A stretch of 64,000 nucleotides of DNA from Verrucomicrobiales bacterium (GTDB lineage Bacteria > Verrucomicrobiota > Verrucomicrobiia > Limisphaerales > Palsa-1400): the NCBI GenBank assembly GCA_003138485.1, contig PLGF01000175.1, positions 2,052 to 66,051 of the forward strand, given 5' to 3'. Every line of letters begins with the position of its first letter. The stretch's first letter is position 1. The notes under the pieces are model-generated. The model was not told the origin of the DNA, searched no databases, and saw only the letters and a program-made list of their open reading frames with translations. A program made the translations under genes and the position numbers. Below, one piece after another: positions 11,273 to 20,538 of this stretch.

Positions 11273-13129
11273 ATGGATAACGAACGAAAAACGCTGGATG
11301 ATCGCAACAAGATGCCGGAACTGGAGCGCCTCCGCCACTCCTGCGCGCATGTCCTGGCCACCGCCATCGCCAAGCTCTGGCCCGACGCCCAATTCGCCGC
11401 CGGACCGCCGGTTGAGAACGGCTTTTATTACGACGTGGAAGTGTCGCATCGCATCTCGCCAGAGGATTTTCCCAAGATCGAGGAGGAAATGAAGCGGGTG
11501 GTCAAGGCGAACCAGACGTTTGAAAAGGTGGTCGTGCCGCGCGCCCAGGCGTTGGAGGACGCCCAAAAAGGCCGGCTGGCCGCGCTGGGCGAACGGGCCG
11601 TGCCGAGCAAGTTCAAGCTCGATATTGTCCAGAACATTCCCGAAAGCGAGCCGATTTCCTATTTCAAGAACGGCGATTTCATCGACCTCTGCGCGGGGCC
11701 GCACGTCATGCGCACGGGGAACATCGGCGCGTTCAAGCTCACGCAAGTCGCCAGCGCCTATTACAAAGGCGACGAGCGCAATCCCCAACTCCAGCGCATC
11801 TACGGCACCGCTTTCAAGAATAGAACCGAGATGGACGCCTACTTCGCGATGCTCGAAGAGGCCAAACGCCGCGACCACCGCAAGATCGGCCAGGAGATGG
11901 GATTGTTCGCGCTGGACTCCGAATATGTCGGGCCGGGCCTGCCGCTTTGGCTGCCCAAAGGCACGGCGATGGTGGAGGAATTGGAGAAGCTGGCCAAGGA
12001 AACGGAATTCGCCGCCGGCTACGTCCGCGTGAAAACGCCGCACATCGCCAAGGAGAAGATGTATTTGACAAGTGGTCATCTGCCGATCCTTTACAAGGAT
12101 TCGATGTTTCCGCCGATGACACTGTTCAGCGAATCCGGGAGCGATGACGCGATTGGTGATCGTTACTATCTCAAGGCGATGAACTGCCCGCATCATCACC
12201 GCATTTTCGCGGCGGAGCCGCGCAGTTACCGGGACTTGCCGTTGCGGCTGGCGGAGTACGGGACGTGCTACCGCTACGAGCAAAGCGGGGAGCTGATCGG
12301 GCTGATGCGCGTGCGGTCGTTGAACATGAACGACGCGCACATCTATTGCTCGGAGGAGCAATTCGCCGCCGAGTTCAACGCCGTCAACGAGATGTATCTG
12401 AAGTACTTCAAGATTTTCGGCATCGAGAAATACATCATGCGTTTCAGCACGCACGACCCCTCCCGCCTGAGCGGCGACAACGCCAAATTTGTCAACGAGC
12501 CGGAGCTTTGGAAAAAGACCGAGGACCTGGCGCGGCGGGTGCTGGTGGAATCGAAGATCAATTTCGTGGAGGTCCCCAACGAAGCCGCCTTTTACGGTCC
12601 GAAAATCGATGTCCAGGTCTGGAGCGTCATCGGGCGCGAGTTTACCCTGGCGACCAACCAGGTCGATTTCGCCGTGCCCGCCCGGTTTGGGCTGAAATAC
12701 CACGACAAAGACAACCTGGACAAGACGCCCTTGTGCATTCATCGGGCGCCGCTGGGGACGCACGAGCGGTTCATCGGCTTCTTGATCGAGCATTACGCGG
12801 GGAATTTCCCGCTCTGGCTGGCTCCCGAACAGGTGCGCGTGCTGACCATTGGCGAGGACGAGAAACTGGTGGAGTACGCCAACTCCATCGTGCGGGAGTT
12901 GCGCGGCCATTTCGTGCGCGCGGAGGCCGATCTTTCGTCGAACAAAATCAACGGCAAAATTCAGGAGGCGGAGAAGGCGCGCGTCCACACGATGCTGGTC
13001 ATTGGCGGGCGCGACCTGGAAGCGGGCAACGTCTCCGTGCGCCTGCACGGCAAAGGCAGCATTGGCGCAAAGCCCAAAGGGGAAGTGGTGGCGGACATAT
13101 TGCAAGCGATCCGGGAGCGGCGGCCATAG
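11273..13129 (+). CDS. thrS: Threonyl-tRNA synthetase (starts at the editing domain, no TGS domain)
   Basis: 'LRHSCAHVLATAIAKLWPDAQFAAGPPVENGFYYDVE', 'DLCAGPHV', catalytic 'MNCPHH', C-terminal anticodon-binding domain. Confidence 0.96.
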   Translation: MDNERKTLDDRNKMPELERLRHSCAHVLATAIAKLWPDAQFAAGPPVENGFYYDVEVSHRISPEDFPKIEEEMKRVVKANQTFEKVVVPRAQALEDAQKGRLAALGERAVPSKFKLDIVQNIPESEPISYFKNGDFIDLCAGPHVMRTGNIGAFKLTQVASAYYKGDERNPQLQRIYGTAFKNRTEMDAYFAMLEEAKRRDHRKIGQEMGLFALDSEYVGPGLPLWLPKGTAMVEELEKLAKETEFAAGYVRVKTPHIAKEKMYLTSGHLPILYKDSMFPPMTLFSESGSDDAIGDRYYLKAMNCPHHHRIFAAEPRSYRDLPLRLAEYGTCYRYEQSGELIGLMRVRSLNMNDAHIYCSEEQFAAEFNAVNEMYLKYFKIFGIEKYIMRFSTHDPSRLSGDNAKFVNEPELWKKTEDLARRVLVESKINFVEVPNEAAFYGPKIDVQVWSVIGREFTLATNQVDFAVPARFGLKYHDKDNLDKTPLCIHRAPLGTHERFIGFLIEHYAGNFPLWLAPEQVRVLTIGEDEKLVEYANSIVRELRGHFVRAEADLSSNKINGKIQEAEKARVHTMLVIGGRDLEAGNVSVRLHGKGSIGAKPKGEVVADILQAIRERRP

Positions 13130-14439: not shown

Positions 14440-15216
14440 ATGAACGGATACCTCTTTACCGCAAGTGTCAGCCGCTCCTTGCTCCGCGAGGCCGCTGCCA
14501 GCCGGCGGCCTGCCGCGCACCGCCCGCAAACCTGGAATGCCTGCCTCAGTTCCATTGTATGCTCCGACAACGCGGACGAAGCGAAGAAGCTCTTTGAAGC
14601 GTCGCTGCACGCGTCACCGGAAGGGGAGGACCCATTTGAGACGCAGATCAACAAACTCGTGGCGGCGCAGTTTGTTGAGCAACTGCTGATGGAAAAGGAC
14701 TCCGCTCCGATTGACTGGCCGCAAATTGCAAAGCAAGCGCAATTGGACCTGGAATCAACTCCCGCCGATGATTTTGAACAGGGCTATTGGGTGGACGTCA
14801 ACGCCTTCCGCCGGCCCTGCGCCAACCTGGAGGCCTTGCGCCAGGCCTTGCCCGAGGACATTCGCTCCGGCCTCAATTGGGCCGAAGAGAAACAGTTCTT
14901 CTTTCTGCTCAGCGTTCTGAGTCCGCCGCCGCCGCCGCGTCCCCAAGCCGAAGAGGCGGACGAACCTGGGGCGGGCGCTCCCGATGCCGCGCCAGAGCCG
15001 GACGAAGCCGCCAGCGGGGCTGCGGGCGGCATCTTCGACACGCAAGCCGATTTCCCGGAAGTGGCGGACAAGGAATCCGCCGTGTTGATTCGAGCGCGCA
15101 ACTCCGCCGTGGCCGCATGGCTGTGGCGCAAATACGCCGCCAACGCGAAGTTCGCCCGCAACCAAATCCGAATCGATCCCTGGTGCGGCGTGATGGGAGT
15201 GGAACCAACAAAGTAG
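14440..15216 (+). CDS. Hypothetical protein whose 3' end is duplicated downstream of the R-M gene
   Basis: 258-aa ORF with start shortly after preceding gene; its last ~43 codons recur at 19114-19250. Confidence 0.7.
   Translation: MNGYLFTASVSRSLLREAAASRRPAAHRPQTWNACLSSIVCSDNADEAKKLFEASLHASPEGEDPFETQINKLVAAQFVEQLLMEKDSAPIDWPQIAKQAQLDLESTPADDFEQGYWVDVNAFRRPCANLEALRQALPEDIRSGLNWAEEKQFFFLLSVLSPPPPPRPQAEEADEPGAGAPDAAPEPDEAASGAAGGIFDTQADFPEVADKESAVLIRARNSAVAAWLWRKYAANAKFARNQIRIDPWCGVMGVEPTK
15077..15206 (+). repeat. 130-bp direct repeat, left copy (flanks R-M cassette)
   Basis: Aligned by eye to 19114-19243 with 7 mismatches and no gaps; period 4037 bp. Confidence 0.95.
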
Positions 15217-15263
15217 CGCGTCCTACTTGCCCTCTCCGCCTCCGGTTTGCTAAACTGCGCACC

Positions 15264-18200
15264 ATGCCAGAGCGGGACAGCCGGACTTACGAGGTGACTT
15301 TTTGCAGCCGTGTTGCGGGCTGGGCCAACGAGTTGTTTAATCAGCGCCCGGAATGGCCATTCCGCCGCGCGGAAATTGAGGAATCAAAAGCCATCAATCG
15401 CAAACGTTCCGACCTCCGAGTCTATGGCGACGCGGCAAAATTGATTCTTGCCGGGGAAGTGAAGATGCCCGGGACGGATCAAGGCCGCAGCGCATATCAC
15501 CCCAACTTGATCAACGACGCGTCCTCGAAAGCCGACAATGCGGGTGCGGAGTTTTTCTTTACCTGGAACGTAAACCAGTTCGTGCTTTTCGACCGCAAGA
15601 AGTGGCATCTCCCAATTTTTGAGCGGCGGGTTAAGGATTATCCGCTTGGATTGGACCTGGAAAAAGCGGAAGACGTTGACCGTGTCGAGGTCGAAGCTCG
15701 CATCAAGGGGTTTCTGGCCGAGTTCTTTGGCGAATTAGCGGCTATTCTCTCGGGCCAACAGCCTGAGTGGGGAATGCGACTTGACGAATGGTTTATTCGC
15801 GCCTTTGAAAGCCATATTGCCTGGCCGGTAAAACTCACGGCGGAATTCCTTTTCGCCAAGGCTTGCGCCGACAAAAGCTTTGACCATAAGTTGCAGGATT
15901 GGCTGGGTGTCGAACAAGGCTGGCAGTTTACCCGCAACGACCCCATTCAGTGGCGGGAAATTCTCGACCGCGCCGCCCGGACGCTTTGTTATGTTTTCGC
16001 CAACCGCTTGATTTTTTACGAATCCGTTCGCGCCAAATTCACGGAATTGCCAGCGCTGGCCATCCCCAAGGCCATCAATTCCGCCGATGCGCTCTATTCC
16101 CATTTCCAAAGAGCCTTTCAAAAGGCGGTTGACGCGACAGGCGATTACGAAACACTTTTTTACCCGTCGGAGAAGGATTGGGCCGGGCCGTTCATTTTTG
16201 GCCACGACGATTCGGCGGAAGCGTGGCGTTCAGTCCTTTACAACTTGGAGCCGTTTAACTTCAAACTTATTCCGACGGATATTTTGGGCGGCATCTTCCG
16301 CCGCATTATTGACCCAACGGAGCGGCACAAATTCGGACAGCATTACACCAACGAAGACCTGGTAGATGTGGTCAATGCCTTTTGCATCCGCAACGCCGAA
16401 GACAACGTGCTGGACCCCGCTTGCGGCTCAGGGAGTTTCCTGGTTCGCGCGTACCATCGAAAAGCCTGGCTCAAGCAGGACGAGCGGCGGACGCACCCGG
16501 GCGTCACGCATCAAGACCGCCTCTCCCAAATCCACGGCGTGGACATTTCCGTTTTTGCCGCTCACCTGTCCACGTTAAACCTAGCGGCGCGCGACATCAA
16601 AGACGAAGAAAACTATCCGCGTATCCGGCGCGGCAATTTCTTTGAAGTCGCCGACGAAGTGGCCAGGAAGAAGCCGTTTTGCCTTTTGCCGCAAGGCTTG
16701 CAAGGCGAGCGCACACCCGGCCCCATTCACCTGCCGCCTCTCCAGGCCGTTGTCGGCAATCCCCCTTATGTGCGGCAGGAACTCATTCCCAGACGCGGGC
16801 AGAAGGGCGTTGCGCCGATGTCCGCCAAAGAGGACCTGATGCAATTCTGCGCCCAAGCCTGGCCCGGCCTGACCCTCAGCGGACGCAGCGATCTGCATTG
16901 CTATTTCTGGCCCGCCGCCACGCGATTCCTGGTCGAAGGCGGATGGTTTGGTTTTCTTGTCTCTTCCAGTTGGCTGGACGTCGAATACGGCTTTGCCTTG
17001 CAGGAATGGGTTTTGAGCAACTTCCGGATCCATGCGATTTTTGAGAGCAACGCGGAACCGTGGTTTGAAGATGCCCGCGTCAAGACGTGCGCAGTCATCT
17101 TGCAGCGTTGCGCGGACTCTGCCCTGCGTCAGGCGCAACTTGTCCGCTTTGTGCGGCTTGACGCTCCGCTGAACACCATCCTTGGCGACCGAGCCGACGA
17201 CAATGCCCGGCAAGACGCGGCTGAGAAATTCCGGGCCGCCGTCCTGGCTTGCAAGCGGAACGCCACGCGGGAGGGCTGGCGGGTGGTTTTGAAACAACAG
17301 AAAGACCTTTGGGAAGACGGCCTGCGAGCAGGCCGCCTGTTTGAAATGCAGCGGCAGCGCGACTTGGCGGATAACGTGAAGGCGGAAGCCGGCGCGGATG
17401 ATGACGAAAACGGCGGGCCGGAATTCGACGAGAACGGCAACGGCAAGCTGCATGAAATCTCGGCCACAGGCTACGGCGGCGGCAAGTGGGGCAAGTACCT
17501 TCGCGCGCCGAATTTTTATTTTCGCGTCATGGAGCGTTATGGCAGCCGCTTCGTGCCGCTGGGCGAAATTGCGACAATACGGTTCGGCGTCAAGAGCGGC
17601 TGCGATGCCTTTTTCATGCCGCGCGATGTGTCGGCCAAATTCCTGGAGGATTATTCCAAGTTGGATTGGAACGAGGCGCCGCTGATCAACCATTGCAAGC
17701 GCGCGGAAGTTGAATCTGGGACCGTAAAACTAATTCAAGCTGGAGACGGCACAGTGCATCCGGTGGAAGCACGATTTCTTGCCCCGGAAATTCACAGCTT
17801 GATGAAAGTGAGCCGCCCTGTAATTTCAGCAAAGGAGGTCGACCGGTTAATTTTGCTAGTGTCTGATGAGATGGGAAATTTAAATAAGACACACGTACAA
17901 AAGTATTTGCGGTATGGCGAGCGCCATTCGTTCGCCTCGAAAAAGAGCAAGGCTGTTCCTGTCCCCAAACGGGCCACGTGTGCCAGCCGCAATCCGTGGT
18001 ATGACCTCACCTACACGAGACCAGGTACGTCGTTTTGGCCGATGGCACAGCAATATCGGCATGTGATTCCCGCCAACCCAGAGGGCTTGATCTGCAACCA
18101 CAACCTCTTTGATATACATCCGTTTGAGCTATCCCAAGAACAGGTTTCAGCTCTGCAGGCCATCTTAAACTCAACGCTGCTCGCAAATTTCAAGACTTTC

Positions 18201-19112
18201 TATGGCCGCTACGCCGGGACCGAAGGAAATCTCAAGACCGAGGTGGTTGACGTGAATCTGATTGAAGTGCCCGATCCGCGTCATGCCACGAAAGACTTAG
18301 CCAAGAAGTTGCGGGACGCCTTCGCCAAGCTCTGCCAGCGAGACACGCGTCCGATGGTGGAAGAGGAATTCATGGCCTGCCACTCTGCCGAACGCGCAAA
18401 GAAACTGGCCGAAAAACCCGTCCGTCTGCCAACGGAATTGCAAATGCAGGACCGCCGTGCGCTTGATCTGGCCGTATTTGAATTGCTGGGGGTGGCCGAT
18501 GCCAAAGAGCGAGAGGCGCTTTGCAATGAGCTTTACCGCGAGACCGCCCGGCATTTCCGCCAAATCCGCATTGTCGAAGTGCAAAAGCAGGAACAGCGCG
18601 CCCGCTCCGAAGGCCGCGAATTTCGCACCGATGAATTGTCAACCGATTTATGGGACGCGCTGACGGACGCCGAAAAACAGCCGCTGGCTGAATGGATGGC
18701 CGCCCAGACAAGCGGCGGCAGAACATTCACCATTCCAGAAGGCCACGCCAGCTTGCCTGACGCCAATGATTTTCTGGACGCCAACACGGTTTTTATTCGC
18801 TCGACCGCCGGCGGCAAGGCCAAGTCAATACCCGTGCGGATGCCCTCTCGCAGCCACGCGGAAACGATCTACACTTTATCGCAACTAAGCTTGCACGGCT
18901 CCATCCGCCTGCCGGAACAGGAAAGCGCCGCCCGCGAGTTGAAGCGGTTGCTGGACGCCCGGTTGGAGGCCATTGCCGAAAAGGCGAACCATCTTGCCCG
19001 CAGTCGCACCAGCGACGAAAGCAAAGCGGCCGATTTGGCCGGCCTTCTGCAACACTGGATGATTCACGGCAAGCCGCAAAACCGCGCGCGGCAATCAGAA
19101 ATCATCCATTGA
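15264..19112 (+). CDS. Type IIG-like restriction/modification enzyme (fused nuclease, N6-adenine methyltransferase and specificity domain)
   Basis: N-terminal PD-(D/E)XK-like 'SDLRVYGDAAKLILAGEVKMPG'; SAM motif 'NVLDPACGSGSFLVRAY'; catalytic 'VVGNPPYVRQE'; C-terminal TRD-like 'FVPLGEIATIRFGVKSGCDAFFMP'. Start chosen at 15264 because the longer ORF (14787) overlaps the upstream CDS. Confidence 0.9.
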   Translation: MPERDSRTYEVTFCSRVAGWANELFNQRPEWPFRRAEIEESKAINRKRSDLRVYGDAAKLILAGEVKMPGTDQGRSAYHPNLINDASSKADNAGAEFFFTWNVNQFVLFDRKKWHLPIFERRVKDYPLGLDLEKAEDVDRVEVEARIKGFLAEFFGELAAILSGQQPEWGMRLDEWFIRAFESHIAWPVKLTAEFLFAKACADKSFDHKLQDWLGVEQGWQFTRNDPIQWREILDRAARTLCYVFANRLIFYESVRAKFTELPALAIPKAINSADALYSHFQRAFQKAVDATGDYETLFYPSEKDWAGPFIFGHDDSAEAWRSVLYNLEPFNFKLIPTDILGGIFRRIIDPTERHKFGQHYTNEDLVDVVNAFCIRNAEDNVLDPACGSGSFLVRAYHRKAWLKQDERRTHPGVTHQDRLSQIHGVDISVFAAHLSTLNLAARDIKDEENYPRIRRGNFFEVADEVARKKPFCLLPQGLQGERTPGPIHLPPLQAVVGNPPYVRQELIPRRGQKGVAPMSAKEDLMQFCAQAWPGLTLSGRSDLHCYFWPAATRFLVEGGWFGFLVSSSWLDVEYGFALQEWVLSNFRIHAIFESNAEPWFEDARVKTCAVILQRCADSALRQAQLVRFVRLDAPLNTILGDRADDNARQDAAEKFRAAVLACKRNATREGWRVVLKQQKDLWEDGLRAGRLFEMQRQRDLADNVKAEAGADDDENGGPEFDENGNGKLHEISATGYGGGKWGKYLRAPNFYFRVMERYGSRFVPLGEIATIRFGVKSGCDAFFMPRDVSAKFLEDYSKLDWNEAPLINHCKRAEVESGTVKLIQAGDGTVHPVEARFLAPEIHSLMKVSRPVISAKEVDRLILLVSDEMGNLNKTHVQKYLRYGERHSFASKKSKAVPVPKRATCASRNPWYDLTYTRPGTSFWPMAQQYRHVIPANPEGLICNHNLFDIHPFELSQEQVSALQAILNSTLLANFKTFYGRYAGTEGNLKTEVVDVNLIEVPDPRHATKDLAKKLRDAFAKLCQRDTRPMVEEEFMACHSAERAKKLAEKPVRLPTELQMQDRRALDLAVFELLGVADAKEREALCNELYRETARHFRQIRIVEVQKQEQRARSEGREFRTDELSTDLWDALTDAEKQPLAEWMAAQTSGGRTFTIPEGHASLPDANDFLDANTVFIRSTAGGKAKSIPVRMPSRSHAETIYTLSQLSLHGSIRLPEQESAARELKRLLDARLEAIAEKANHLARSRTSDESKAADLAGLLQHWMIHGKPQNRARQSEIIH

Positions 19113-19113
19113 G

Positions 19114-19243
19114 CCGCCGTGTTGATTCGCGCGCGCAATTCCGCCGTCGCCGCATGGCTGTGGCGCAAGTACGCCGCCAACGCAAAGTTCGCCCGCGATC
19201 AAATCCGAATCGATCCCTGGTGCGGCGTGATGGGAGTGGAACC
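19114..19243 (+). repeat. 130-bp direct repeat, right copy
   Basis: See 15077-15206; begins 1 nt after the R-M stop codon. Confidence 0.95.
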
Positions 19244-19250
19244 CGGCTGA
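19116..19250 (+). pseudogene. Promoterless 3' fragment of the 14440-15216 gene (AVLIRARNSAVAAWLWRKYAANAKFARDQIRIDPWCGVMGVEPG*)
   Basis: In-frame and open to TGA; no upstream part of the gene present. Confidence 0.75.

Positions 19251-19281: not shown

Positions 19282-20538
<1,257 letters not shown>

Follow-up and report, generated by a model that had tools for sequence, protein, structure and literature searches.

We uncovered a one-gene Type IIG restriction-modification (R-M) unit that lies between two copies of a 130-nt direct repeat in a 64-kb window (the whole stretch of DNA that was analysed) from an uncultured Limisphaerales lineage. One of these copies is the 3′ end of the gene immediately upstream. 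We consider it probable that the unit was acquired and inserted at the 3′ end of this orphan gene, duplicating about 130 bp of its target. The locus is organized as follows:

14440..15216, + strand: target gene for an uncharacterised 258-aa protein, with the left repeat as its 3′ end
15077..15206, + strand: left repeat copy, encoding a conserved block of ~43 residues at the C-terminus of the target-gene product
15207..15263, + strand: 57-nt lead of the insert, through which the target gene gains its final codons and stop (ACAAAG TAG) and the R-M gene its 5′ region
15264..19112, + strand: Type IIG R-M gene (ATG 15264, TGA 19110-19112; 3849 nt, 1282 aa)
19114..19243, + strand: right repeat copy, in frame as far as a TGA at 19248-19250
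19288..20538, + strand: esterase/feruloyl-esterase-like gene (Pfam PF00756), beyond the right copy

The two copies align without a gap at a period of 4037 bp, just as the first-pass annotation had described, with 123 of the 130 positions identical and the remaining seven amounting to 5.4% divergence. When searched against all 4.75 Mb of the assembly, the repeat matched these two places only (E-values of 1e-62 and 2e-53), and a pair of this kind is far beyond chance. The window has no other direct repeat of at least 40 nt except one 41-nt pair at 78%. A scan of ~0.96 Mb of the source genome (60 contig stretches plus the window, about 20% of the genome) yielded no further widely spaced direct repeat as identical as this pair; those that we inspected by eye lie within large proteins or represent tandem paralog-like pairs. 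The boundaries of the insert are sharp: the left copy, noted from the outset as the 3′ end of the ORF 14440-15216, stops 57 nt before the R-M start, and, also as originally noted, a single nucleotide separates the R-M stop from the right copy. The cargo between them (57 nt, the R-M gene and 1 nt) measures 3907 bp, and the ORF list confirms that the R-M gene is the only gene therein, with neither a transposase nor an integrase in the unit. Likewise, no site-specific recombinase was found in or near the element, the nearby ORFs being judged by eye and some of them searched against families. A comparison of the insert ends revealed no terminal inverted repeats, and a scan of the 57-nt lead for a sigma-70 promoter found no consensus.

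Pfam, PADLOC, catalytic motifs and Foldseek agree on the identity of the cargo as a single-gene Type IIG enzyme, which had been proposed from the sequence by itself. The 1282-aa product is matched by the Pfam Eco57I and N6_Mtase models and by the PADLOC model REase_MTase_IIG (E=3e-29). Its N-terminus bears a PD-(D/E)XK nuclease motif, wherein D50, E65 and K67 (E65xK67) are invariant across 16 aligned sequences, and this is followed by the N6-adenine methyltransferase motifs DPACGSGSF at 384 and NPPY at 499; the C-terminal region is presumably devoted to target recognition. An AlphaFold model of residues 1-340 has a mean pLDDT of 85.8, and its best Foldseek match, the sole one below 1e-3, is the Type IIG enzyme BpuSI, with DrdV coming next. 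Alignments of the homologues reach to about 2-11 residues from the stop of the window enzyme. Taken together, these family matches, the motifs, the near-full alignment to the C-terminus and the match to the BpuSI fold argue that 15264-19112 encodes a predicted complete and intact one-gene Type IIG R-M enzyme, a single chain with both nuclease and adenine methyltransferase. As is usual in this family, it most likely acts on a non-palindromic DNA site, both methylating and cutting there. It resembles BpuSI and DrdV in being a single polypeptide with an N-terminal PD-(D/E)XK nuclease, N6-adenine methyltransferase motifs and a C-terminal region, but differs in that its sequence similarity to solved methyltransferases is remote only. 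A search against plasmids returned only remote, partial matches.

The product of the target gene has no match in Pfam, NCBIfam or PADLOC, and its predicted structure (mean pLDDT 47) is too uncertain for use. As far as searched, the gene is known only from Limisphaerales: among 320 genomes of the order, relatives occur in 12 others, the full-length ones being 36-54% identical, and some of their records are labelled Limisphaerales or Verrucomicrobia subdivision 3; the phages searched have no match. The duplicated 130-nt stretch corresponds to the conserved C-terminal block of this family. The relatives, which are distant and stand in differing contexts, have one C-terminus each and no R-M gene beside it. 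As a separate observation, a lone degraded C-terminal fragment of the family in genome G206 (L049 8642-8731) adjoins repetitive AGCGCGGGGAAAACGGG sequence, which also follows a target-gene relative in L040.

The distribution of the enzyme is patchy. Of 319 other genomes of the order, 9 have strong homologues (66-79% identity), and of 389 others sampled across the phylum, 5 have remoter ones (45-50%); the enzyme is absent from the other family f1 genomes compared. The nearest homologue, from G007 of family f3, is 79% identical to the window enzyme, about equal to the 77-80% between the threonyl-tRNA synthetases (ThrRS) of the two genomes. The genes beside the homologues vary, with glmS, lysA, thyA and a LysR gene among them. 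In G128, the R-M gene begins 51 nt past the stop of an unduplicated lysA, and those family relatives of G128 in which the lysA region was found have other sequence after lysA and no R-M gene. Moreover, the GC3 of the R-M gene in the window is 0.664, versus 0.73-0.81 in its neighbours. The patchy distribution, the unrelated neighbours, the lack of an R-M gene after lysA in the relatives of G128 and the lower GC3 point to horizontal acquisition of the R-M gene, with insertion at various places. We also noticed that in G007 and G149 the R-M gene is directly followed on its 3′ side by a conserved gene for a 231-236-aa protein (L029 8233-8943; L034 6236-6928, minus strand), which is 57% identical between the two and has no Pfam or PADLOC match; it is possibly a partner of the R-M gene that is missing from the window unit. 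A resemblance between the 57-nt lead and what lies upstream of the R-M gene in G128 (p about 0.04 in one of nine comparisons) was set aside as not significant after nine comparisons, and also since the lysA stop there is native.

The first-pass annotation had further viewed the unit as a self-contained mobile cassette that targets the 3′ ends of genes and leaves its host gene intact. There are signs of acquisition, as described above, and the upstream gene indeed retains an open C-terminus, but self-driven movement is not supported. At 12 other near-complete enzyme loci, no direct repeat flanks the gene within up to 6 kb on each side (some contigs end sooner), and their nearest 600 bp contain only chance-level matches of 8-14 nt. 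With no repeats at any of these loci, with differing neighbours and with the G128 insertion lying past an unduplicated lysA, targeting of gene 3′ ends by the enzyme is unsupported, and no relative shows that the enzyme makes such repeats. Rather, the 12 homologous loci argue that the duplication would be peculiar to individual events and no trait of the enzyme family. We deem it highly improbable that this one-gene Type IIG unit is an autonomous element, which would enter the 3′ ends of protein genes via a ~130-bp duplication, rebuild the gene end and exit by recombination between the copies.

The scenario that we favor is an insertion of the acquired unit with target duplication. The entering DNA would have been about 3.9 kb in length, comprising the R-M gene and the 57 nt upstream of it, and its insertion at the 3′ end of 14440-15216 would have duplicated about 130 bp of the target. 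The target gene would owe its C-terminus and stop codon to the left copy together with the first bases of the insert, and the right copy would be a redundant relic. We infer an empty allele at this exact site, without the R-M gene and with one copy of the 130-nt stretch. The duplication step itself would most simply be an insertion linked to recombination or repair, of the kind that has been proposed for R-M genes, with no dedicated transposase. Once in place, the direct repeats could serve homologous recombination that excises the 4037-bp unit or amplifies it in tandem, and the enzyme, as is typical of its family, would most likely persist either through defence of the cell or through a penalty on its loss.

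The differences between the copies give mixed signals on the origin of the repeat. Six of the seven mismatches fall at third codon positions, an excess with a binomial p=0.007 if codon position is neutral and 0.16 if half of the changes arose in a constrained copy. This bias would fit two coding alleles that diverged in separate genomes and were later joined, and because of it we keep as a live rival the arrival of the R-M gene on DNA, such as a circle or fragment, that already bore a homologous 3′ end and entered by a single homologous crossover within the 130 bp. The copies would then be alleles of two lineages, the other being another strain or species, rather than a duplicated target; their 5.4% divergence with just one codon replaced, and the fact that both are in frame and free of indels, agree with such an origin. 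However, it requires a donor in which the same rare gene adjoins this R-M gene, and no such arrangement is seen in the genomes of the order that were searched. Further, the single replacement, Asn to Asp, is in the right copy, most relatives having Asn there like the left copy, which would suit a relaxed local duplicate on the right. On balance, we regard the crossover as unlikely.

Still less probable is the relic of a rearrangement, wherein a tandem second copy of the target gene once existed, and the insertion of the R-M gene along with a deletion took the 5′ part of that copy. This would account for the presence of a 3′ end only on the right side, and tandem paralog-like pairs are known elsewhere in the source genome, but it calls for extra steps, and a second full copy of the target gene is found in no genome of the order that was searched. 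We also considered an artefact of metagenome assembly, in which strains with and without the R-M gene were joined to create an artificial second copy. The source genome is indeed a fragmented assembly (194 contigs, 89.67% complete), and a difference of about 5% would fall in the range of strain variants; yet the window is without any N, and inspection by eye revealed no misjoin-prone sequence shared at the junction of the R-M end and the right copy, making this quite improbable.

That R-M genes can insert with a long target duplication is already known: the review PMC3874152 and PMC3031569 describe it, with repeats around 100 bp in length, and cite Nobusato et al. 2000 and Furuta et al. 2010 for this mode, and the resemblance suggested in the first-pass annotation agrees with this literature. 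Like those cases, the window locus features a unit free of transposase and integrase between direct repeats on the 100-bp scale (here 130 nt) and a target that is single-copy in relatives (here distant ones in other contexts). It differs from them in being a single-gene Type IIG system from Limisphaerales with copies 5% diverged and an empty site that is presumed. It is likely to be another case, and one that would present this mode in compact form, with a one-gene enzyme from an uncultured lineage. Islands flanked by attL and attR likewise have a gene 3′ end as their direct repeat and keep the gene before it open; unlike these, the window unit has no integrase, is 3.9 kb with one gene, and displays a much longer repeat, and the relatives of the enzyme show no recurrence at gene ends.

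In the course of this analysis, we also came across unusual architectures of the ThrRS gene, thrS. In G128:C143 (L164 3252-10506), a ~5.2-kb insert interrupts thrS at about residue 286-296 and holds four genes on the reverse strand, coding for an MBL-fold protein, a regulator-like ORF with no PADLOC match, a GHKL ATPase and an N6-methyltransferase-like protein; it looks like a defence cassette, with both halves of thrS still open frames. Extra copies of the ThrRS C-terminus are found in the same genome at L165 2534-2818 and 3743-4096, L166 65-361, L167 2923-3269 and L164 17470-17904, two of which stand directly after a sigma-54-activator-type gene. The window ThrRS (11273-13129, 618 aa) seems to be without an insertion near residue 290, and many relatives in the order appear to carry one at this position, as seen from two-piece matches and open frames of about 690-732 aa.
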